Assembly: GCA_020641055.1 (NCBI GenBank)
Contig: CP067345.1
Location: forward strand, 3,403,317 to 3,467,316
Direction: 5' to 3'
DNA length: 64,000 nt
DNA from: Clostridioides sp. ES-S-0010-02
GTDB lineage: Bacteria; Bacillota; Clostridia; Peptostreptococcales; Peptostreptococcaceae
In this document: positions 21,428-29,354 of the stretch, one piece after another
Position numbering within the stretch: the stretch's first letter is position 1
How the letters are laid out: every line of letters begins with the position of its first letter
Notes under the pieces: model-generated
What the model was told of the DNA's origin: nothing
The model's input: only the letters and a program-made list of their open reading frames with translations
The model's database searches: none
Translations under genes and position numbers: made by a program

Positions 21428-21456
21428 TTGACTTTTATTTTTTACTGTATTAAACT
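21428..21456 (+). promoter_or_regulatory. Promoter of ABC operon 1
   Basis: TTGACT (21428-21433), 17 bases, TAAACT (21451-21456). It is placed about 60 bases before the leader-peptide ATG. Confidence 0.5.
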
Positions 21457-21518: not shown

Positions 21519-21572
21519 ATGAAGACTTTATTAAACAAACAAGTACGATTTTTTAGTAGCCAATTTAGTTAG
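21519..21572 (+). CDS. Leader peptide 1, Phe-rich (MKTLLNKQVRFFSSQFS)
   Basis: 17-codon frame with a strong SD AAAAGGAGAGG five bases before the ATG and a TAG stop. It contains consecutive Phe codons (11 and 12) and a third Phe (16). It resembles leader 2 upstream of the second transporter (shared start M-x-T-L-L-N, same SD, same position before a conserved hairpin chain). The stop codon touches segment 1 of the hairpin chain. Both position and composition fit a ribosome-stalling sensor of charged tRNA-Phe. Translation has not been shown; the prediction rests on SD, codon content and conservation between the two copies. Confidence 0.75.
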   Translation: MKTLLNKQVRFFSSQFS

Positions 21573-21778
21573 GGTTTGTAGCTAAGTTAAGACAAATTGT
21601 CATAACATAGATACAGACCCCTTAGGATTACCATTTTTAAGGATTGTATCTATGTTGGCTATAGTGATTGTTGTTAAAGTTTTTATTTTATCATCATATT
21701 ATAGAGAGCCACATGGATTATACTGTGTGGCTCATTCGTGTTTTTGCCATACAGTTATATGTACTGTGTGGTTTTTTT
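21557..21778 (+). promoter_or_regulatory. Transcription attenuator of ABC operon 1
   Basis: Chain of competing RNA segments. Segment 1 (21572-21580) pairs with segment 2 (21612-21620, 9 bp). Segment 2 (21604-21615) pairs with segment 3 (21645-21656, 12 bp perfect). Segment 3 can pair with 5' arm A (21708-21718) across one bulge; arm A pairs with 3' arm A (21726-21733). The 9-mer ACTGTGTGG occurs twice (21722-21730 and 21763-21771), so CCATACAGT (21747-21755) can form either an anti-terminator with the first copy or the terminator with the second, which is followed by seven T. 21557-21563 can also pair with 21655-21661. Confidence 0.75.
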
Positions 21779-21849
21779 ATATCCAAAATTTAATTTTCAA
21801 TTATATTTAAAAAATTATTTTAAAATATTTTCAAAGGGGTGTTTTATTT

Positions 21850-22752
21850 ATGTCAGGTATTATATCTGTAATGACGCAAAGTTTAATTTTATCAATCATG
21901 GCACTGGGGGTTTATATAACTTACAAAATCTTAGATTTTCCCGATATGTCTGCTGATGGTAGCTACACAATGGGAGCTTCTATTGTAGCATTTTCTCTTA
22001 CTAATGGGATTTCTCCTATAGTAGCAACTTTAATGGCTATTTTATGTGGTTGTATTGCTGGTCTTGTAACTGGTATACTTCACATTAAATTTAAAATATC
22101 TAACTTACTTTCTGGTATTTTAGTTATGGGAATGCTCTACTCTATCAACCTAAGAATAATGGGAAAATCAAATATCCCACTATTTAGTTTTAAACATTTA
22201 TTCAATGGAGAAATATCTCCTATAGTTTTAGCTCTAGCATTTGTACTTATCTGTAAAGTACTTTTGGATTTATTCTTAAAGACAGGTCTTGGATACACTC
22301 TAAAAGGTGTTGGTGACAACTCTCAAATGATTAAATCTTTGGGTATAAACATCGGTTCTATAAAAATATTAGGGCTTATGATTTCAAATGGACTTATAGC
22401 TTTATCTGGTAGTTTGATGGCTCAATTCTTAGGATTCTCAGACGTAAATATGGGTATCGGAACTTTAGTACTTGGAATTGCATCTATCATAATTGGTATT
22501 ACATTATTTAAGAAATTTACTTTTATTAAAAATACTACTGCAATAATTGTTGGTTCTTTCATATACCAATTCACTATATACTTTGCAATGAGTTTAGGTA
22601 TGTTATCAACTGATTTAAAACTAATAACTGCCATAGTTATAATAGCTTTCTTAGCTACTGGTAACTTAAATATCTCACTAAAAAAAAACAAGTGCAAGGC
22701 TAGTACCAAAAATAAATCTGAAAAAAGAGGTGTTATAGATGTTACAAATTAA
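21850..22752 (+). CDS. ABC transporter permease, aromatic amino acid importer 1
   Basis: 300 residues with about eight hydrophobic segments. It belongs to the BPD_transp_2 type permeases related to the branched-chain/ribose group that work with ABC_sub_bind (TrpX-like) lipoproteins. The signature near the N-terminus is ITYKILDFPDMSADGSYTMG. Start ATG with AAAGGGGTG. It overlaps the ATPase gene by 14 bases. The nucleotide sequence differs from the second permease (25485-26387) at only four positions that I could find, giving one amino-acid change (Cys to Tyr in the C-terminal basic tail). The preceding Phe-rich leader suggests phenylalanine or a mixed aromatic substrate; this is inference. Confidence 0.9.
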   Translation: MSGIISVMTQSLILSIMALGVYITYKILDFPDMSADGSYTMGASIVAFSLTNGISPIVATLMAILCGCIAGLVTGILHIKFKISNLLSGILVMGMLYSINLRIMGKSNIPLFSFKHLFNGEISPIVLALAFVLICKVLLDLFLKTGLGYTLKGVGDNSQMIKSLGINIGSIKILGLMISNGLIALSGSLMAQFLGFSDVNMGIGTLVLGIASIIIGITLFKKFTFIKNTTAIIVGSFIYQFTIYFAMSLGMLSTDLKLITAIVIIAFLATGNLNISLKKNKCKASTKNKSEKRGVIDVTN

Positions 22753-23494
22753 AAATATTTCAAAGAGTTTCCCAAATCCATATGGTCAACCTAATACTAT
22801 ATTTGAAAATTTATCCCTTAGTATAGAAGACGGTGAATTTGTAAGTATCATAGGTAGTAATGGAACTGGTAAATCTACTTTATTAAATATAATATCGGGA
22901 TTATTAAAAGAATCCTCTGGTGAAATCACTCTAGATAATACTAATATAACAAATTTAGCTGAACACAAAAGAACTCAAATAGTAAGTAGAGTTTTTCAAG
23001 ACCCAAGCTTAGGAACTTGTCCTTCTATGACAGTTAGAGAAAATTTATCTTTGGCTCTTAATAAGGGGAAATTGCTAAATTTAAAGAGATGTCTTCGTCA
23101 TAAAACAAATGACTTAGAGCACTTACTTGAAGGAATTTCTCTAGATTTAAAAAAATACTTAGATATCAAAGTACAATATCTTTCAGGAGGTCAAAGACAA
23201 TCACTTTCACTAATTATGTCTAGTTTAGCAAGCCCTAAGGTTCTATTATTAGATGAGCATACAGCAGCACTTGACCCAAAGACATCAAATGAAGTAATTG
23301 AATTAACTGATAAAATTATAAGAGAAAAAAATATAACTACACTTATGGTAACTCACAACTTAAAGCATGCACTTCAATATGGAGATAGATTGATAATGCT
23401 CCATAAAGGTGAAGTGGTCTTAGATGTAAAGGGAAAAGAAAAAGAAGAATTAACAGTTGAAGAAATCTTAGAAAAATTTGAATATGCTGTTTAA
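22739..23494 (+). CDS. ABC transporter ATPase, aromatic amino acid importer 1
   Basis: 251 residues. Walker A GSNGTGKST (about 38-46), Q-loop in RVFQDP, signature LSGGQRQ, Walker B VLLLDEHTAALDP with an H rather than P after DE, and the switch histidine in VTHNLKHAL. Energises the importer formed with the permease encoded in the overlapping upstream gene. SD AGAGGTG lies inside the permease end. The central part differs from the second-copy ATPase, but the last 70 residues are the same except for one Ile/Val, in line with partial homogenisation of the two operons. Confidence 0.93.
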   Translation: MLQIKNISKSFPNPYGQPNTIFENLSLSIEDGEFVSIIGSNGTGKSTLLNIISGLLKESSGEITLDNTNITNLAEHKRTQIVSRVFQDPSLGTCPSMTVRENLSLALNKGKLLNLKRCLRHKTNDLEHLLEGISLDLKKYLDIKVQYLSGGQRQSLSLIMSSLASPKVLLLDEHTAALDPKTSNEVIELTDKIIREKNITTLMVTHNLKHALQYGDRLIMLHKGEVVLDVKGKEKEELTVEEILEKFEYAV

Positions 23495-23647
23495 AAGTAT
23501 GTATTATGATAATTTAATTTTAGCTTAGTTACAAATTAGTTTATTTATAAAATAATTGTAAAATCATAATATTTTTAGCAATACTACAATAATTCATATG
23601 AATATATGAACATATATAATAATAAAATTTTTGAGGGGGATATAAAA

Positions 23648-24685
23648 ATGATTAATAAAAAAAGATTGGTAAGTTTAATTTTAGCTGGTACTCTTGGAAT
23701 ATCTATGCTCACTGGATGTTCTCAAAATGGAGGCTCAGATGCTTCAAAAGACAATGAAAAAACAGACAAGAAAGAAATAAAAAATATAGGAATCACTCAA
23801 TTAGTAGAACATCCATCTTTAGATAAGGCAAAACAGGGATTCATAAAAGCACTAGAAGATAAAGGTTATAAGGATGGAGATAATATAAAAATAGACTTCC
23901 AAAATGCACAAAATGATATGCCTACTACACAAAGTATTGCAAGTAAATTCGTATCTGATAAAAAAGATTTGATATATGCTATATCTACACCTTCAGCTCA
24001 AGCAGCTTATAATGCTACTAAAGATATACCTATAATCATGACTGCTGTTACAGACCCTGTAGAGGCTGGCTTGGTTAAATCTCTTGAAAAACCAGGTGGA
24101 AACGTTTCAGGTACATCAGATTATCTTTCAATTGATAAAACACTTGAATTGGTTAAAACTTTAACTCCAAAAGCAAAGAAAATAGGCGTTATATACAATA
24201 CTAGTGAAGTTAATTCAAAAATACAAGTTGATTCTCTACATGATTATGCTAAGAAAAATAATTATGAAGTTGTTGAAAAAGGAATCAGTTCTTCAAGTGA
24301 AGTTAACCAAGCTATTTCTAGTTTAGTTGGCAAAATAGATGTTTTATATGTTCCTACTGATAATTTAATAGTTTCTTCTATGCCTATAGTTTCTAAAGTA
24401 GCTAACGAAAACAAAATACCTATAATAGCTTCTGAAGAAGGCTCTGTATCATCTGGTGCTTTAGCTTGTTGTGGAATAGACTATGAAAAACTAGGTTACA
24501 AGGCTGGAGAACTTGCTATTGAAGTGTTAGAGGGTAAACCTGTTGGTGATATACCTGTTGCTATGTTAGATGAAACTGAAATAATAATCAATGAAGATAC
24601 ACTAAAAGCACTTGACATGCAAAAGCTATCAGCAGATAATATAAAGTATATAAAGTCAGATAAAAATGCAAAATCTGCAGAGTAA
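23648..24685 (+). CDS. Substrate-binding lipoprotein of aromatic amino acid importer 1
   Basis: 345 residues from the ATG at 23648 (GAGGGGGAT upstream; an ATG at 23606 precedes the SD and is not used). Lipoprotein signal with lipobox LTGC (Cys24), a Ser/Asp/Lys-rich linker, then an ABC_sub_bind (TrpX/YtpQ-like) two-lobe domain beginning IGITQLVEHPSLD. Conserved pocket-region motifs NAQNDMPTTQSIA and STPSAQAAYNATKDIP are shared by all three lipoproteins in this window. It is anchored on the outer face of the membrane and delivers substrate to the permease. The family includes the published C. difficile CD0873 protein, reported to bind tyrosine; this copy follows a Phe-rich leader. Confidence 0.9.
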   Translation: MINKKRLVSLILAGTLGISMLTGCSQNGGSDASKDNEKTDKKEIKNIGITQLVEHPSLDKAKQGFIKALEDKGYKDGDNIKIDFQNAQNDMPTTQSIASKFVSDKKDLIYAISTPSAQAAYNATKDIPIIMTAVTDPVEAGLVKSLEKPGGNVSGTSDYLSIDKTLELVKTLTPKAKKIGVIYNTSEVNSKIQVDSLHDYAKKNNYEVVEKGISSSSEVNQAISSLVGKIDVLYVPTDNLIVSSMPIVSKVANENKIPIIASEEGSVSSGALACCGIDYEKLGYKAGELAIEVLEGKPVGDIPVAMLDETEIIINEDTLKALDMQKLSADNIKYIKSDKNAKSAE

Positions 24686-24714
24686 AATGTAGTAAATTCA
24701 AAAAAGTAGGTAAT

Positions 24715-24753
24715 ATGAAAACTTTATATAGTAAGTACTCTTATCCACCCTAA
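24715..24753 (+). CDS. Orphan leader peptide 3, Tyr-rich (MKTLYSKYSYPP)
   Basis: 12 codons with three Tyr, beginning MKTL like leader 1 and preceded by AAGTAGGTAAT, which resembles the leader 1 SD region but is weaker. It starts 30 bases after the first lipoprotein gene and is followed by hairpins and a strong terminator, yet no transporter gene follows before the promoter of operon 2. It may be a relic of a lost copy, or it may control read-through from operon 1 into operon 2 by tyrosine supply. The Pro-Pro end before the stop could slow ribosomes. Not shown to be translated. Confidence 0.5.
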   Translation: MKTLYSKYSYPP

Positions 24754-25091
24754 CCCTTTGAAAATTGTACTTATTGTAGCAATTTATTGCATATAAAGTT
24801 ATTCATTTTCCATAAAGTCGTCTATTTTGACGACAGATTATGAAAGTTATATAACTTTCTAATCATTATTTGAGCTGTCTAAATAGAAATTTAAATTTCT
24901 TAGACAGCTTTTTTTTATAAATTTTAATATCTACAGCTTTATCTTCATTCCACATTTTTCTTTAATTAAATATTTTTTCACAAAATTCCCATTCAATTTA
25001 TAAGTTTAGGATAACGTTTTTTCCAATTGATACATTCTCTTTTAAAAATTCCAAGTATACACTATGTAGTATCTTAATTAAATTTAGCAGT
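24754..25091. other. Region between the orphan leader and the operon 2 promoter
   Basis: About 340 bases without a gene. The first half holds the attenuator-like hairpins and terminator described separately; the second half is AT-rich and contains TTTAGGATAACGTT at 25005-25018, a 14-mer also found at the treB promoter. Confidence 0.5.
24795..24917 (+). terminator. Attenuator-like hairpins and terminator after leader 3
   Basis: GTCGTC / GACGAC hairpin (24817-24834), palindrome GAAAGTTATATAACTTTC (24842-24859), and a strong terminator AGCTGTCTAA / TTAGACAGCT (24873-24882, 24900-24909) followed by T. AAAGTTAT (24795-24802) can pair with ATAACTTT (24851-24858), so alternative folds are possible, as in the other leaders. 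It also serves as the terminator of operon 1. Confidence 0.7.
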
Positions 25092-25120
25092 TGACTTTTA
25101 TTATTGTATAATTTATAATT
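25092..25120 (+). promoter_or_regulatory. Promoter of ABC operon 2
   Basis: TTGACT (25092-25097), 17 bases, TATAAT (25115-25120): near-consensus sigma-A promoter. The leader peptide starts about 58 bases after the expected transcription start. Confidence 0.85.
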
Positions 25121-25143
25121 TATAACAAGTCAAGAATACATAT

Positions 25144-25158
25144 AATTTTCTGACTAAT
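25144..25158. promoter_or_regulatory. CodY-box-like site in the operon 2 leader
   Basis: AATTTTCTGACTAAT matches the CodY consensus at 12 of 15 positions, with the left half perfect. It lies downstream of the promoter, where bound protein would block elongation. Weaker than the copy at operon 1. Confidence 0.35.
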
Positions 25159-25184
25159 TAAAATATTAAAAGGGAGAGATAATT

Positions 25185-25241
25185 ATGAATACTTTATTAA
25201 ACAATAAAAAATATTATTATTACTATAGCCACTATTTCTAG
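25185..25241 (+). CDS. Leader peptide 2, Tyr-rich (MNTLLNNKKYYYYYSHYF)
   Basis: 18-codon frame with SD AAAAGGGAGAG before the ATG and a TAG stop. Five consecutive Tyr codons (four TAT, one TAC, codons 10-14) are followed by Ser-His-Tyr-Phe, so six of 18 residues are Tyr. Such runs are the signature of attenuation leader peptides, compare His in his and Phe in phe leaders of enterobacteria. The stop codon touches segment 1 (25241-25249) of the hairpin chain. With leader 1 it shares start, SD and position, but the codon run has changed from Phe to Tyr, which suggests the two operons sense different aromatic amino acids. Confidence 0.85.
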   Translation: MNTLLNNKKYYYYYSHYF

Positions 25242-25424
25242 GGTTTGTACCTACGTTTTAACATAGATACAGACCCCTTAAGACTAGCAAAACTTTGGGA
25301 TTGTATCTATGTAGGCTATATTGTTTATAGAGTTTTCATTTAACTATATAAGAGCCACATAGATTATACTATGTGGCTTATTCGTGTTTTTACCACATAG
25401 TTGTGTATACTATGTGGTTTTTTT
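25224..25424 (+). promoter_or_regulatory. Transcription attenuator of ABC operon 2
   Basis: Same chain as in operon 1. Segment 1 GGGTTTGTA (25241-25249) pairs with TACAGACCC (25268-25276). Segment 2 ACATAGATACA (25261-25271) pairs with TGTATCTATGT (25302-25312). Segment 3 (25305-25317) pairs with 5' arm A AGCCACATAGAT (25353-25364) through one bulge. Arm A pairs with CTATGTGGCT (25369-25378). CCACATAGT (25393-25401) pairs either with the first CTATGTGG or with ACTATGTGG (25409-25417), which has a seven-T tail. TATAGCC (25224-25230), inside the Tyr codons, can also pair with GGCTATA (25314-25320). Base changes relative to operon 1 largely keep these pairings. Confidence 0.8.
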
Positions 25425-25484
25425 ATATACAAAATTAACAAATAATTAAAATTATAAAAATATTTTTAAAGGAGTGTTTTATTT

Positions 25485-26387
25485 ATGTCAGGTATTATAT
25501 CTGTAATGACGCAAAGTTTAATTTTATCAATCATGGCACTGGGGGTTTATATAACTTACAAAATCTTAGATTTTCCCGATATGTCTGCTGATGGTAGCTA
25601 CACAATGGGAGCTTCTATTGTAGCATTTTCTCTTACTAATGGGATTTCTCCTATAGTAGCAACTTTAATGGCTATTTTATGTGGTTGTATTGCTGGTCTT
25701 GTAACTGGTATACTTCACATTAAATTTAAAATATCTAACTTACTTTCTGGTATTTTAGTTATGGGAATGCTCTACTCTATCAACCTAAGAATAATGGGAA
25801 AATCAAATATCCCACTATTTAGTTTTAAGCATTTATTCAATGGAGAAATATCTCCTATAGTTTTAGCTCTAGCATTTGTACTTATCTGTAAAGTACTTTT
25901 GGATTTATTCTTAAAGACAGGTCTTGGATACACTCTAAAAGGTGTTGGTGACAACTCTCAAATGATTAAATCTTTGGGTATAAACATCGGTTCTATAAAA
26001 ATATTAGGGCTTATGATTTCAAATGGACTTATAGCTTTATCTGGTAGTTTGATGGCTCAATTCTTAGGATTCTCAGACGTAAATATGGGTATCGGAACTT
26101 TAGTACTTGGAATTGCATCTATCATAATTGGTATTACATTATTTAAGAAATTCACTTTTATTAAAAATACTACTGCAATAATTGTTGGTTCTTTCATATA
26201 CCAATTCACTATATACTTTGCAATGAGTTTAGGTATGTTATCAACTGATTTAAAACTGATAACTGCCATAGTTATAATAGCTTTCTTAGCTACTGGTAAC
26301 TTAAATATCTCACTAAAAAAAAACAAGTACAAGGCTAGTACCAAAAATAAATCTGAAAAAAGAGGTGTTATAGATGTTACAAATTAA
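25485..26387 (+). CDS. ABC transporter permease, aromatic amino acid importer 2
   Basis: 300 residues, identical to the first permease except for one residue in the basic C-terminal tail. About eight membrane segments, BPD_transp_2 type. Start ATG with AAAGGAGTG; overlaps the ATPase gene by 14 bases. The Tyr-rich leader in front, and the CD0873-type lipoprotein at the end of the operon, point to tyrosine as substrate. Because the permeases are practically the same protein, any difference in specificity between the two importers should come from the lipoproteins. Confidence 0.9.
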   Translation: MSGIISVMTQSLILSIMALGVYITYKILDFPDMSADGSYTMGASIVAFSLTNGISPIVATLMAILCGCIAGLVTGILHIKFKISNLLSGILVMGMLYSINLRIMGKSNIPLFSFKHLFNGEISPIVLALAFVLICKVLLDLFLKTGLGYTLKGVGDNSQMIKSLGINIGSIKILGLMISNGLIALSGSLMAQFLGFSDVNMGIGTLVLGIASIIIGITLFKKFTFIKNTTAIIVGSFIYQFTIYFAMSLGMLSTDLKLITAIVIIAFLATGNLNISLKKNKYKASTKNKSEKRGVIDVTN

Positions 26388-27129
26388 AAATCTTTCAAAG
26401 AGTTTCCCAAATCCATACGGTCAACCTAATACTATATTTGAAAATTTATCAATTGACATAGAAGACGGTGAATTTGTAAGTATCATAGGTAGCAATGGAA
26501 CTGGTAAATCCACTTTATTAAATATAATATCGGGTCTTATAAAAGAATCTTCTGGCCAAGTATTATTAAATAAACACAATTTATCTAATTTGGCTGAACA
26601 TAGAAGAACTCAAATAGTAAGTAGAGTTTTTCAAGACCCAAGTTTAGGAACTTGTCCCTCTATGACAGTTAGAGAAAATTTATCTTTGGCTCTTAATAAA
26701 GGTAAGTTATTAAATCTAAAAAAATGTCTTCGTTATAAAAGAGATTTTCTAGAAAATTTATTAGAAGGAGTTTCTCTAGATTTAAAAAAATACCTAGACG
26801 TACAAGTACAATTTTTATCAGGAGGTCAAAGACAATCACTTTCACTAATTATGTCATGCTTAACAAGTCCTTCAGTTTTATTACTTGATGAGCATACAGC
26901 AGCTCTTGACCCAAAAACATCAAATGAGGTAATTGAATTAACCGATAAAATTGTAAGAGAAAAAAATATAACTACACTTATGGTAACTCACAACTTAAAG
27001 CATGCTCTTCAATATGGAGATAGATTAATTATGCTCCATAAAGGTGAAGTTGTCTTAGATGTAAAGGGAAAAGAAAAAGAAGAATTAACAGTTGAAGAAA
27101 TCTTAGAAAAATTTGAATATGCTGTTTAA
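26374..27129 (+). CDS. ABC transporter ATPase, aromatic amino acid importer 2
   Basis: 251 residues with Walker A GSNGTGKST, signature LSGGQRQ, Walker B LLLDEHTAALDP and the VTHNLKHAL switch. Paralogue of the ATPase at 22739-23494; differences cluster between about residues 28 and 160 (for example the segment after SSG and around CLRYKRDFLENLLEG), while both ends are the same. Translated from an ATG inside the end of the permease gene. Partner of the permease upstream and of the two lipoproteins downstream. Confidence 0.93.
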   Translation: MLQIKNLSKSFPNPYGQPNTIFENLSIDIEDGEFVSIIGSNGTGKSTLLNIISGLIKESSGQVLLNKHNLSNLAEHRRTQIVSRVFQDPSLGTCPSMTVRENLSLALNKGKLLNLKKCLRYKRDFLENLLEGVSLDLKKYLDVQVQFLSGGQRQSLSLIMSCLTSPSVLLLDEHTAALDPKTSNEVIELTDKIVREKNITTLMVTHNLKHALQYGDRLIMLHKGEVVLDVKGKEKEELTVEEILEKFEYAV

Positions 27130-27282
27130 AAGTATATATTATGATAATTTAATTTTAGCTTAGTTACAAATTAGTTTATTTATAAAATAATTTTAAAGTC
27201 ATAATATTTTTAGCAATACTACGACCATTTATATGAATATATGAACATATATAATAATAAAATTTTCGAGGGGGATATAAAA

Positions 27283-28305
27283 ATGATTAATAAAAAAAGA
27301 TTGGTAAGTTTAATTTTAGCTGGTGCTCTTGGAATATCTATGCTTACAGGATGTTCACAAGGTGGAGACTCTAGCAATTCTAAACAAGAAAATAACTCTA
27401 AAGACAAAGAAGTTAAAAAAATTGGTATAACTCAATTGGTTGAACATCCAGCATTGGATGCTACTAAAACAGGATTTGTAAAAGCCTTAGAAAAAAATGG
27501 ATTTAAAGATGGAGAAAATATTGATATAGATTTCCAAAATGCTCAAAATGATATGCCTACTACACAAAGTATTGCAAGTAAATTTGCATCTGATAAAAAG
27601 GACTTAATATTTGCAATATCTACTCCATCTGCTCAAGCAGCTTATAATGCAACTAAGGATATACCTATACTTATAACTGCTGTCAGTGACCCTGTCGCTG
27701 CTGGCTTAGTTAAATCAATTGAAAAACCAGGTGGAAATGTATCTGGAACATCAGACTTTGTTTCTGTAGAAAAAGGATTAGAACTACTTAAAATATTTGC
27801 TCCTAAAGCAAAGACTATAGGAGTTATGTACAATACTAGTGAAGTTAATTCAAAAGTTCAAGTTGATGCTTTAAAAGAATATGCTTCTAAAAATGGTTTT
27901 AAAGTTGTTGAAAAAGGAATAACTACTTCAAATGAAGTCAATCAGGGAATTTCTAGCTTAGTTGGTAAGATAGATGTTTTATATGTTCCTACTGACAACT
28001 TAGTAGCTTCTTCTATGCCAATAGTTTCTAAAATAGCTACTGAAAATAAGATTCCAGTTATAGCAGCTGAATCTGGTCCAGTTGAAAAAGGTGCTCTTGC
28101 TTGTCAAGGTATAAACTATGAAAAACTTGGTTACAAAACAGGTGAAATGGCTGTTAAAATTTTAAATGGTGAATCAGTTTCTGATATGCCTGTAGCTACA
28201 TCAGATGATACAGATATCATTGTTAATGAAGATATACTAAAAGCTTTAGGTATGGAAAAACCTTCTAATGAAAATATTTCTTATGTAAAAACTAAACAAG
28301 AATAA
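27283..28305 (+). CDS. Substrate-binding lipoprotein A of aromatic amino acid importer 2
   Basis: 340 residues from the ATG at 27283 (SD GAGGGGGAT). Lipobox LTGC at Cys24, then an ABC_sub_bind domain starting IGITQLVEHPALD. It has the shared motifs NAQNDMPTTQSIA, STPSAQAAYNATKDIP and GKIDVLYVPTDN. The 150 bases before it and its signal peptide are nearly the same as those of the first-operon lipoprotein, whereas the mature domain has diverged. A second lipoprotein follows 32 bases later, so this importer may use two receptors. Ligand inferred as an aromatic amino acid. Confidence 0.9.
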   Translation: MINKKRLVSLILAGALGISMLTGCSQGGDSSNSKQENNSKDKEVKKIGITQLVEHPALDATKTGFVKALEKNGFKDGENIDIDFQNAQNDMPTTQSIASKFASDKKDLIFAISTPSAQAAYNATKDIPILITAVSDPVAAGLVKSIEKPGGNVSGTSDFVSVEKGLELLKIFAPKAKTIGVMYNTSEVNSKVQVDALKEYASKNGFKVVEKGITTSNEVNQGISSLVGKIDVLYVPTDNLVASSMPIVSKIATENKIPVIAAESGPVEKGALACQGINYEKLGYKTGEMAVKILNGESVSDMPVATSDDTDIIVNEDILKALGMEKPSNENISYVKTKQE

Positions 28306-28337
28306 ATATAATAGATTTTTATGAGGGAGTGGTCAAA

Positions 28338-29354
28338 ATGAAGTCCAGTAAGTTGATAAATTTAATTTTAATTGGTGTTCTTAGTGTATCTACCATTACA
28401 GGTTGTTCTAAAAATAATGAAGGTGAGTCAAATAAATCATCTGATAAAAATAATGAAATTAAAAAAATTGGTATTACTCAGTTAGTTGAGCATCAAGCTT
28501 TAGATGCATCCAGAGAAGGATTCATTAAAGCTCTAGAAGATAATGGATTTAAAGATGGTAAAAATATAGAAATAGATTATCAAAATGCTCAAAATGATAT
28601 GCCTACTACACAAACTATAGCTAGTAAATTTGTTTCTGATAAAAAAGATTTGATATTTGCTATATCTACTCCATCTGCTCAGGCATCATACAATGCTACT
28701 AAAGATATACCTATACTTATAACTGCTGTAACTGACCCTGTTTCAGCTGGATTTGCAGATTCTTTAGATAAACCAGGTAAAAATGTTTCTGGAACTTCTA
28801 ATTTTACACCTATTGATAAGAGTTTAAAGGCTCTTGATATACTAATCCCACAAGCAAAGACTATAGGTGTTATATATAATACTAGTGAGGTAAATTCTAA
28901 AGTTCAAGTTGATAACTTGAAGAAATATGCAAATGATAAAGGTCTTAAAGTTGTTGAAAAAGGAATTAGTTCTTCTAGTGAAATAAATCAAGCTGCTTCT
29001 AGTTTAATGGGTAGCGTAGATGTTATTTATGCTCCTACAGATAATTTACTTGCATCTTCTATGCCTATCGTTTCTCAACTTGCTACTAAAAATAAAATAC
29101 CTATAATAGCTGCAGAGGAAGGTATGGTAAAAGGTGGAGCATTAGCTTGCCAAGGTATAGATTATGAAAAATTAGGTTATAAGACTGGTGAGATGGCTGT
29201 TAAGGTCCTAAAAGGAGAATCTAAAGTTTCAGATATGCCTATAACAAGTTTAGAAGAAACTAATTTAATTATTAATGAAGATACTCTAAAGGCACTTTCT
29301 CTAGATAAACCTTCTGACAAGAACATAGTTTATATTAAAACTGAAAATAAATAA
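28338..29354 (+). CDS. Substrate-binding lipoprotein B, CD0873-type
   Basis: 338 residues from the ATG at 28338; GAGGGAGTG is the SD and an in-frame GTG at 28329 lies within it. Lipobox ITGC at Cys23. ABC_sub_bind domain beginning IGITQLVEHQALD. By position (last gene of the cluster, next to a convergent maa) it corresponds, from memory, to C. difficile CD0873, described as a surface lipoprotein adhesin that binds tyrosine. The Tyr-rich leader of its operon is independent sequence support for a tyrosine role. It could also be transcribed separately, but I see no promoter in the 32-base gap. Confidence 0.88.
   Translation: MKSSKLINLILIGVLSVSTITGCSKNNEGESNKSSDKNNEIKKIGITQLVEHQALDASREGFIKALEDNGFKDGKNIEIDYQNAQNDMPTTQTIASKFVSDKKDLIFAISTPSAQASYNATKDIPILITAVTDPVSAGFADSLDKPGKNVSGTSNFTPIDKSLKALDILIPQAKTIGVIYNTSEVNSKVQVDNLKKYANDKGLKVVEKGISSSSEINQAASSLMGSVDVIYAPTDNLLASSMPIVSQLATKNKIPIIAAEEGMVKGGALACQGIDYEKLGYKTGEMAVKVLKGESKVSDMPITSLEETNLIINEDTLKALSLDKPSDKNIVYIKTENK

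Follow-up and report, generated by a model that had tools for sequence, protein, structure and literature searches.

The window analysed here is a 64,000 nt stretch of the genome of Clostridioides sp. ES-S-0010-02; those of its features described below lie on the + strand. It carries an operon with genes for an ABC permease (PF02653, 25485..26387) and an ABC ATPase (PF00005, 26374..27129), both assigned by domain match, for the substrate-binding lipoprotein CD0873 (27241..28305; best match 6HNI, E 2.6e-194) and for a second substrate-binding protein, placed in the family of CD0873 by sequence comparison (28329..29354). The permease is 98% identical to one encoded at named C. difficile loci, and the crystal of CD0873 is reported to hold tyrosine (PMC6816091). 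A tandem paralogous operon, absent from an earlier note on this DNA, begins 3.7 kb upstream; sequence comparison identifies its permease, ATPase and binding protein genes (21850..24685). Its binding protein is 74% identical to CD0873 (27241-28305), and from gene order and similarity we infer that it is CD0876, which has been proposed as a tyrosine transporter (PMC6816091). Across the tandem operons (21519-29354) the permeases are nearly identical; convergent deletion of a binding-protein plus ATPase gene at such repeats has been described in unrelated strains, and where the neighbouring binding protein and ATPase had been lost naturally, an association with lower uptake of both tyrosine and phenylalanine was seen (both PMC5951980).

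Upstream of the permease gene lies a short leader ORF, MNTLLNNKKYYYYYSHYF* (25185..25241; ATG at 25185, TAG at 25239-25241), which has counterparts in relatives and is preceded by the Shine-Dalgarno sequence AGGGAG (25171..25176). As the earlier note had read it, MNTLLNNKKYYYYYSHYF has 18 codons with Tyr at codons 10-14 and a sixth Tyr at codon 17; the five consecutive codons, TAT TAT TAT TAC TAT (25212..25226), end 14 nt before RNA segment 1 described below. The near-consensus promoter of that note was also recovered (TTGACT-17-TATAAT, 25091..25119, 11/12 matches in a consensus scan), though such sites are common in A+T-rich DNA (32 within the window versus 23.1 expected; for terminator-like sites, 3 versus 1.0). 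A Tyr run of at least five appeared in 31 of 200,000 dinucleotide shuffles of the leader ORF, and among 56 ATG ORFs of 10-40 codons preceded by a Shine-Dalgarno sequence on both strands of the window, the Tyr leader is the only one with a run of at least four. As expected of an attenuator, an ORF with a ribosome-binding site lies between promoter and terminator, and its run of five Tyr codons matches tyrosine, the ligand of the operon's binding protein CD0873. The N-terminal MxTLLN stretch of the leader recurs in the paralogous leader (25185-25206 and 21519-21540); its RNA, TAAACAATA at 25198-25206, can pair with TATTGTTTA at 25319-25327 (helix I10), 3′ of the strand named 0′ below, and this pairing may add to the 0:0′ lock.

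The leader RNA is unusually stable (z = −5.7; none of 100 shuffles equally stable) and offers two mutually exclusive folds. Segment 2 (25261..25276) and segment 3 (25297..25312), delimited by the helix listing and by alignments of both folds, pair as 2:3 (helix I2). They are followed by hairpin A, a first terminator-like structure (25353..25378, with A5′ at 25353-25364 and A3′ at 25368-25378; helix I6), and by hairpin B with a T run (25392..25424; helix I7), which sequence pattern and covariation mark as an intrinsic terminator ahead of the first structural gene. In the alternative fold segment 1 (25241..25255) pairs with segment 2, segment 3 with A5′ (helix I15; 12 pairs with one bulge, 25305-25317 with 25353-25364) and A3′ with B5′ (helix I11). 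Helix 1:2 proved longer than in the earlier note: it joins 25241-25255 with 25262-25276 in 13 pairs with two mismatches. The stop codon, said to abut segment 1, overlaps it by one base, the G of the stop codon being the first base of the segment. A further strand inside the ORF, segment 0 (25224..25231, delimited in alignment A2 introduced below), can pair with 0′ (25313..25320), which lies just 3′ of segment 3; the GGCT of 0′ has two alternative partners, segment 0 and A5′. The terminating fold comprises 0:0′, 2:3, A and B, and the read-through fold 1:2, 3:A5′ and A3′:B5′.

The same RNA, with Phe codons, stands before the paralogous operon (21519-21778). Here a promoter-like sequence (TTGACT-17-TAAACT, 21428..21456) precedes a leader ORF with Phe codons, MKTLLNKQVRFFSSQFS* (21519..21572), which is followed by segments 1, 2 and 3 (21572..21656, by sequence and alignment) and by hairpins A and B with the T run (21707..21778), where base changes preserve pairing. 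The order of elements is common to both RNAs and Phe codons occupy the Tyr positions; the tandem leaders are a natural codon swap on one RNA design. A Phe leader does not obviously predict tyrosine transport by CD0876. The genome holds also a His copy at C1:2760358-2760487 (locus L116, E 0.15), which encodes MVRLNVEKLNIKLNHHHHHRLKGL before a hisZ-like gene. Two other, weak DNA matches in this genome (C1:1745602 and C1:751737) comprise only A+T-rich sequence past the terminator and were set aside.

To find relatives we used R1, a covariance model built on 15 leaders. Of the 71 family genomes searched with R1, 45 gave a match (E ≤ 0.01; these E-values are rough and the set includes the training sources); among 393 genomes from the order there were 43 with a match (E ≤ 0.001), 38 of the 43 belonging to the same family. 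Across relatives the RNA is conserved, but the amino acid encoded by the run is Tyr, Phe or His. Inspection of 72 leader loci gave 42 of an ABC class, 18 of a BrnQ/sodium symporter class and 12 of a His class; three loci from the order-wide search bring the ABC class to 45, a few of these being assigned by the leader alone (at a contig end, or where the picked ORF was not the gene). The gene behind the 18 Tyr/Phe-rich leaders encodes a BrnQ-family carrier or, in L131 and L143, a sodium symporter; the 12 leaders with His runs are followed by hisZ or by the gene of an amino-acid binding protein. Family models were applied to one or two members per class: the carrier of L108 matches TIGR00796 (325.8 bits, cut-off 243.4), L131 is SNF and L133 is SBP_bac_3; the genes of L109 and L116 have the hisZ model TIGR00443 as best match below its cut-off (218.6 and 222.2 bits versus 271.65), and that of L121 is of TrpX type, again below cut-off.

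Wherever the gene was identified, the codon run matches it. The Tyr run precedes the CD0873 operon and a His run precedes hisZ; Trp codons precede trpB (L167) and a TrpX-type binding protein gene (L160), and Tyr codons precede aroE (L224) and a DAHP synthase gene (L252), these four genes all scoring over curated cut-offs. Within runs TAT/TAC and CAT/CAC vary while the amino acid is constant, and these synonymous changes suggest that it is the amino acid that is conserved. In the hisZ-type leaders L123, L109 and L112 the run reads YYHHH, with Tyr codons directly before the His run. Outside the family, L018, L031, L158 and L159 keep the RNA and have isolated Phe codons with Val/Ile and no aromatic run. 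The BrnQ-family carriers found behind Tyr/Phe-rich leaders (L108, L111, L113, L114, L125-L127, L129, L130, L132, L134, L139, L142, L144, L146 and L147) were assigned by model in L108 and by eye in the remainder; annotated as branched-chain carriers, they may, judging from their leader codons, carry tyrosine. Leaders of the BrnQ class have a conserved TCCTAGG palindrome between hairpins A and B.

The earlier note had proposed a covariation check with homologous loci, and paired substitutions were found in both exclusive folds. Alignment A2, made without structural information, holds 25 of the 45 ABC-class leaders (nine C. difficile near-copies, four close relatives with extra terminators and seven divergent leaders were omitted). 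For the terminating fold, 93.6% of cells are paired, 14 of 44 pairs are changed on both sides, and the covariation score is 0.234 versus 0.179 in shuffles (reached by 0/500), with slid controls at most 0.097; within it, helix 0:0′ has 91.5% of cells paired and 3 of 8 pairs changed on both sides. For the read-through fold the corresponding values are 93.3%, 9 of 37 pairs, and 0.222 versus 0.183 (0/500), with slid controls at most 0.088. Both scores exceed any slid control more than 2-fold. The count of pair types in the read-through fold of A2 was not above shuffles (reached by 132/500), and the two distal pairs of 1:2 are poorly formed, with 40.5% of cells paired. In A3, which holds 15 of the 18 BrnQ/sodium symporter leaders (three near-copies omitted), covariation scores of both folds were above all shuffles; in its number of doubly changed pairs the read-through fold did not exceed them (194/500). 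The His group (12 leaders), analysed for the read-through fold only, has little variation and gives little covariation; 22/500 shuffles reach its score and 89/500 its percentage. The pairings of the earlier note (1:2, 3:A5′ and A3′:B5′ against 2:3, A and B) thus have comparative support in relatives, and mutually exclusive folds with paired substitutions are as expected of an attenuator.

We also folded the transcript with A5′ out and A3′ not yet out, holding the ribosome footprint single-stranded. For the Tyr element stalled on the run, 1:2 and 3:A5′ are predicted; with the ribosome at the stop codon, or with no ribosome, mainly 2:3 is predicted. Among relatives, a stall at the last codon of the run favours 1:2 over 2:3 in 24 of 25 leaders in A2 and 15 of 15 in A3, and a ribosome at the stop codon favours 2:3 over 1:2 in 40 of 40 leaders (25/25 in A2), a result that holds partly by construction because the stop state blocks segment 1. 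L007 and L128 deviate from the stall prediction (L128 keeps 2:3 when stalled), and L105, with the ribosome at the stop codon, is divided between 2:3 (9.5 pairs) and 3:A5′ (9.9). Among the 11 ABC leaders outside A2 other than the C. difficile near-copies, a stalled ribosome gives 1:2 and a ribosome at the stop codon gives 2:3 in 10; the transcript length taken was that with the greatest difference between states, which is a favourable choice; outside A2, 3:A5′ was not evident in L021 and L097. The geometry is conserved as well: among the 25 leaders of A2 the distance from the end of the run to segment 1 is 14 nt for 11 leaders, 17 nt for 12 and 23 nt for the other 2, and in all 15 leaders of A3 it is 14-16 nt. 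The stop codon begins 2 nt before segment 1 in 21 of 25 in A2. The stall/no-stall logic of the earlier note is supported, in relatives, by comparative data and by modelled ribosome states.

Since segment 0 and A5′ are rivals for the end of segment 3, the Tyr element without a ribosome is predicted to terminate; default termination without a ribosome was dropped as a general rule, as ribosome-free folding is mixed in relatives. In full-length equilibrium folding the terminator wins in every ribosome state tried. The decision must then be co-transcriptional, falling between the emergence of A5′ and that of A3′, and read-through would need kinetic trapping, given that the terminating fold is always the full-length minimum.

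Sequence, conservation, paired substitutions, geometry and predicted folds are the observations on which the following mechanism is built; translation of the leader, stalling, termination and the response to tyrosine are what we infer. With ample Tyr-tRNA the ribosome would reach the stop codon and cover segment 1; segment 2 would then pair with 3, hairpins A and B would form, and transcription would end near 25424. When Tyr-tRNA is short, the ribosome would stall at codons 10-14 and cover segment 0, leaving segment 1 free; 1:2 would form, segment 3 together with 0′ would capture A5′, and A3′ would capture B5′. Terminator B would thus be blocked and the tyrosine importer transcribed. If the leader were left untranslated, 0:0′ would hold the terminating fold.

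Enterobacterial trp, his and phe leaders work with the same components, a codon run, a stalled ribosome, exclusive hairpins and an intrinsic terminator; in those leaders the control codons are part of segment 1, and it is segment 2 that a stalled ribosome leaves free. The Tyr element is laid out differently. Its run lies not inside segment 1 but 14 nt before it, stalling would free segment 1, an extra pairing step restores the sign of the response, and two terminators act in relay.

The 3′ part of the Tyr element overlaps a published RNA, the trpB motif RF04312 (SRC-39-1). According to PMC11109978 this is a strong riboswitch candidate, ligand unknown, with >900 representatives, ranked as strong because of its covarying hairpin and terminator; it is found most often before an uncharacterised ABC transporter, and a classic attenuator was left open there. 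In a permissive scan the Tyr element scored 41.1 bits and the Phe element 38.8 bits against RF04312, both below the 59-bit cut-off. Structurally, both the Tyr element and RF04312 have the 2:3 hairpin and terminator A, with the antiterminator strand in the 3′ side of the first hairpin; the Tyr element differs in its second terminator, B, and in its Tyr codons (Trp or His in the 23 above-cut-off members of RF04312 found here). As the RF04312 model begins at segment 2 (25260), the leader ORF and segment 1 fall outside it.

We searched four sets of genomes with RF04312. Matches were found in 5 of 398 genomes of the phylum (1 over cut-off), 27 of 29 genomes of one family (12 over cut-off), 42 of 71 genomes of the own family (0 over cut-off) and 32 of 147 genomes of another family (9 over cut-off). 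In total 23 matches were above cut-off, 14 in the 29-genome family and 9 in the 147-genome family, the single one from the phylum search being among them. All 23 are preceded by a short leader ORF whose end lies ∼20 nt upstream of the model; in 22 of them this ORF has paired Trp codons (W-Q-x-W), in one a His run. In the 29-genome family a W..W leader precedes 14 of 14 matches versus 4 of 4200 shuffled upstream sequences; the above-cut-off matches are mutually related and so not independent.

In a first set of 35 RF04312 matches, a filter for codon-rich leaders retained 27. Reading the failures by eye revealed leaders in L161 (Phe), L184 (Tyr), L186 and L191 (Trp and Tyr), and in L179 a Trp leader without an ATG start; no leader was found in L163, L164 and L180. 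In a second set of 30 matches the filter missed L234 (above cut-off) and L238, both with Trp leaders by eye, and no leader was found in L250 and L256. The five leaderless matches score 37.9-48.3 bits, all below cut-off; in the four that were read (L163, L180, L250 and L256) the core is absent, and they were set aside as looking like chance hairpins. Among lower-scoring matches, Tyr leaders stand before aroE-like genes (L184, L190) and the DAHP synthase gene (L252), genes for APC-type permeases follow Phe/Tyr leaders, and permease genes follow His leaders; in an NCBIfam scan of L231, L237, L248 and L252 from among these loci, only L252 was over its cut-off.

Alignment A5 holds 21 of the 24 Trp elements. 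Covariation scores of both folds were above all shuffles. In the read-through fold, helix 3:A5′ reaches 85.4% pairing, and the number of doubly changed pairs does not exceed shuffles (450/500). In the ribosome test 1:2 prevails over 2:3 in 20 of 21 with the ribosome at the first Trp codon and in 16 of 21 at the last, and 2:3 prevails at the stop codon in 21 of 21. Leader-peptide attenuation probably explains the published motif.

The published reading of the trpB motif, in which the 2:3 region would bind an amino acid or related ligand and so control terminator A, has in its favour the ranking of RF04312 by its covarying hairpin and terminator (PMC11109978), a model that the window matches with 41.1 bits, below its cut-off of 59. 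Against a metabolite-binding riboswitch stand the leader ORFs at all 23 above-cut-off matches (Trp pair in 22, His run in one), the 14 of 14 W..W leaders against 4 of 4200 shuffles, and a codon run that changes with the gene while the RNA core stays constant; we regard this reading as improbable. It is less credible still that the ORF encodes a Tyr-rich small protein with its own function and that the hairpins are plain terminators of an upstream RNA. Recurrence of the MxTLLN-like N-terminus across many leaders might suggest such a protein, yet the C-terminal Ser-His/Gln is accounted for by RNA pairing (segment 0), the run switches to Phe or His with the operon, and a plain terminator would not need the read-through pairings, which are conserved. 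Attenuation without amino-acid specificity, through general translation speed or antibiotic stalling (erm-type), is equally remote: the read-through fold would result wherever the leader ribosome was halted ahead of segment 1, but the codon run tracks the downstream gene. A T-box or other known riboswitch was rejected, as a scan of the window at Rfam gathering cut-offs gave 0 matches and RF00230 was not matched permissively.

We therefore consider it highly probable that the Tyr element is a ribosome-mediated attenuator reporting tyrosyl-tRNA charging, and that it belongs to a modular class with swappable Tyr, Phe, His or Trp codons that includes RF04312.

A second published RNA appears related. 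RF02863 derives from E. faecium sRNA_2410, seen as a 195 nt RNA by RNA-seq and as two bands on Northern blots (PMC5593968). Its segments follow the order of the Tyr element, the start of its consensus can be read as S-Y-F-R-stop, and in its curated structure the position of 0:0′ is already occupied by a helix and that of 1:2 by a hairpin; RF02863 was published as a small RNA, unlike our reading of the Tyr element as a leader attenuator. Two BrnQ-class relatives score over its cut-off of 61 (L127 with 78.2, L125 with 61.3), as does L224, which has a Tyr leader before aroE (TIGR00507 over its cut-off); the leaders in the window fall below that cut-off (Tyr 18.1 bits, Phe 25.3 bits). As a guess, the two sRNA_2410 bands could be products of terminators A and B.

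For histidine, attenuation of this kind has been predicted before. Before his operons of Peptostreptococcaceae, C. difficile included, a His-codon leader, attenuator, antiterminator and terminator were predicted (PMC9413887); what is described there concerns histidine only, and the text available mentions neither leaders with Tyr, Phe or Trp codons nor a shared RNA core. A His leader peptide has been described before hisZ and hisS paralogues in bacilli (PMC2965389), a leader-peptide attenuation with a His codon stretch in Bacillota, as in the present class; the main text of that paper treats histidine only, the words difficile, tyrosine and aromatic being absent from it. A T-box was described for trpX in Streptococcus suis (PMC9382623). 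In the open-licence PMC literature we found no description of a Tyr or Phe leader for the present operons and no paper joining a leader peptide with tyrosine codons; the available text of PMC7438776 (TSS), PMC11477304 (riboswitch review), PMC3649979 (regulatory RNA) and PMC8632094 does not contain the Tyr leader. The earlier note knew of no published description; this holds for the Tyr leader but not for the whole system, given the overlap of its 3′ part with RF04312 (PMC11109978) and the predicted His leaders (PMC9413887). Attenuation as a mechanism is already known and parts of the class have appeared in print under different names; what seems new, within the open-licence literature searched, is the shared architecture with swappable codons, together with the reassignment of RF04312.

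More broadly, it is likely, if somewhat less so than the reading of the Tyr element itself, that a single class, in which the RNA relay stays fixed and the Trp/Tyr/Phe/His window is exchanged, spans several families of Bacillota, explains RF04312 and RF02863 as leader-peptide attenuators or terminated transcripts, and has codons that report substrates. The trpB motif, with its >900 members, may then have no ligand because its sensor would be the translating ribosome, and its leader codons indicate which codons to test. In C. difficile the tandem Tyr and Phe leaders would provide a natural codon-swap experiment before transporters feeding p-cresol production. If the codon window reports substrate, it would yield substrate predictions for poorly assigned amino-acid carriers; a BrnQ-family carrier behind a Tyr leader in Peptostreptococcaceae is predicted to move tyrosine. 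For aromatic amino acids and histidine in Bacillota, leader-peptide attenuation would be an alternative to T-boxes that is commoner than the cited papers describe.
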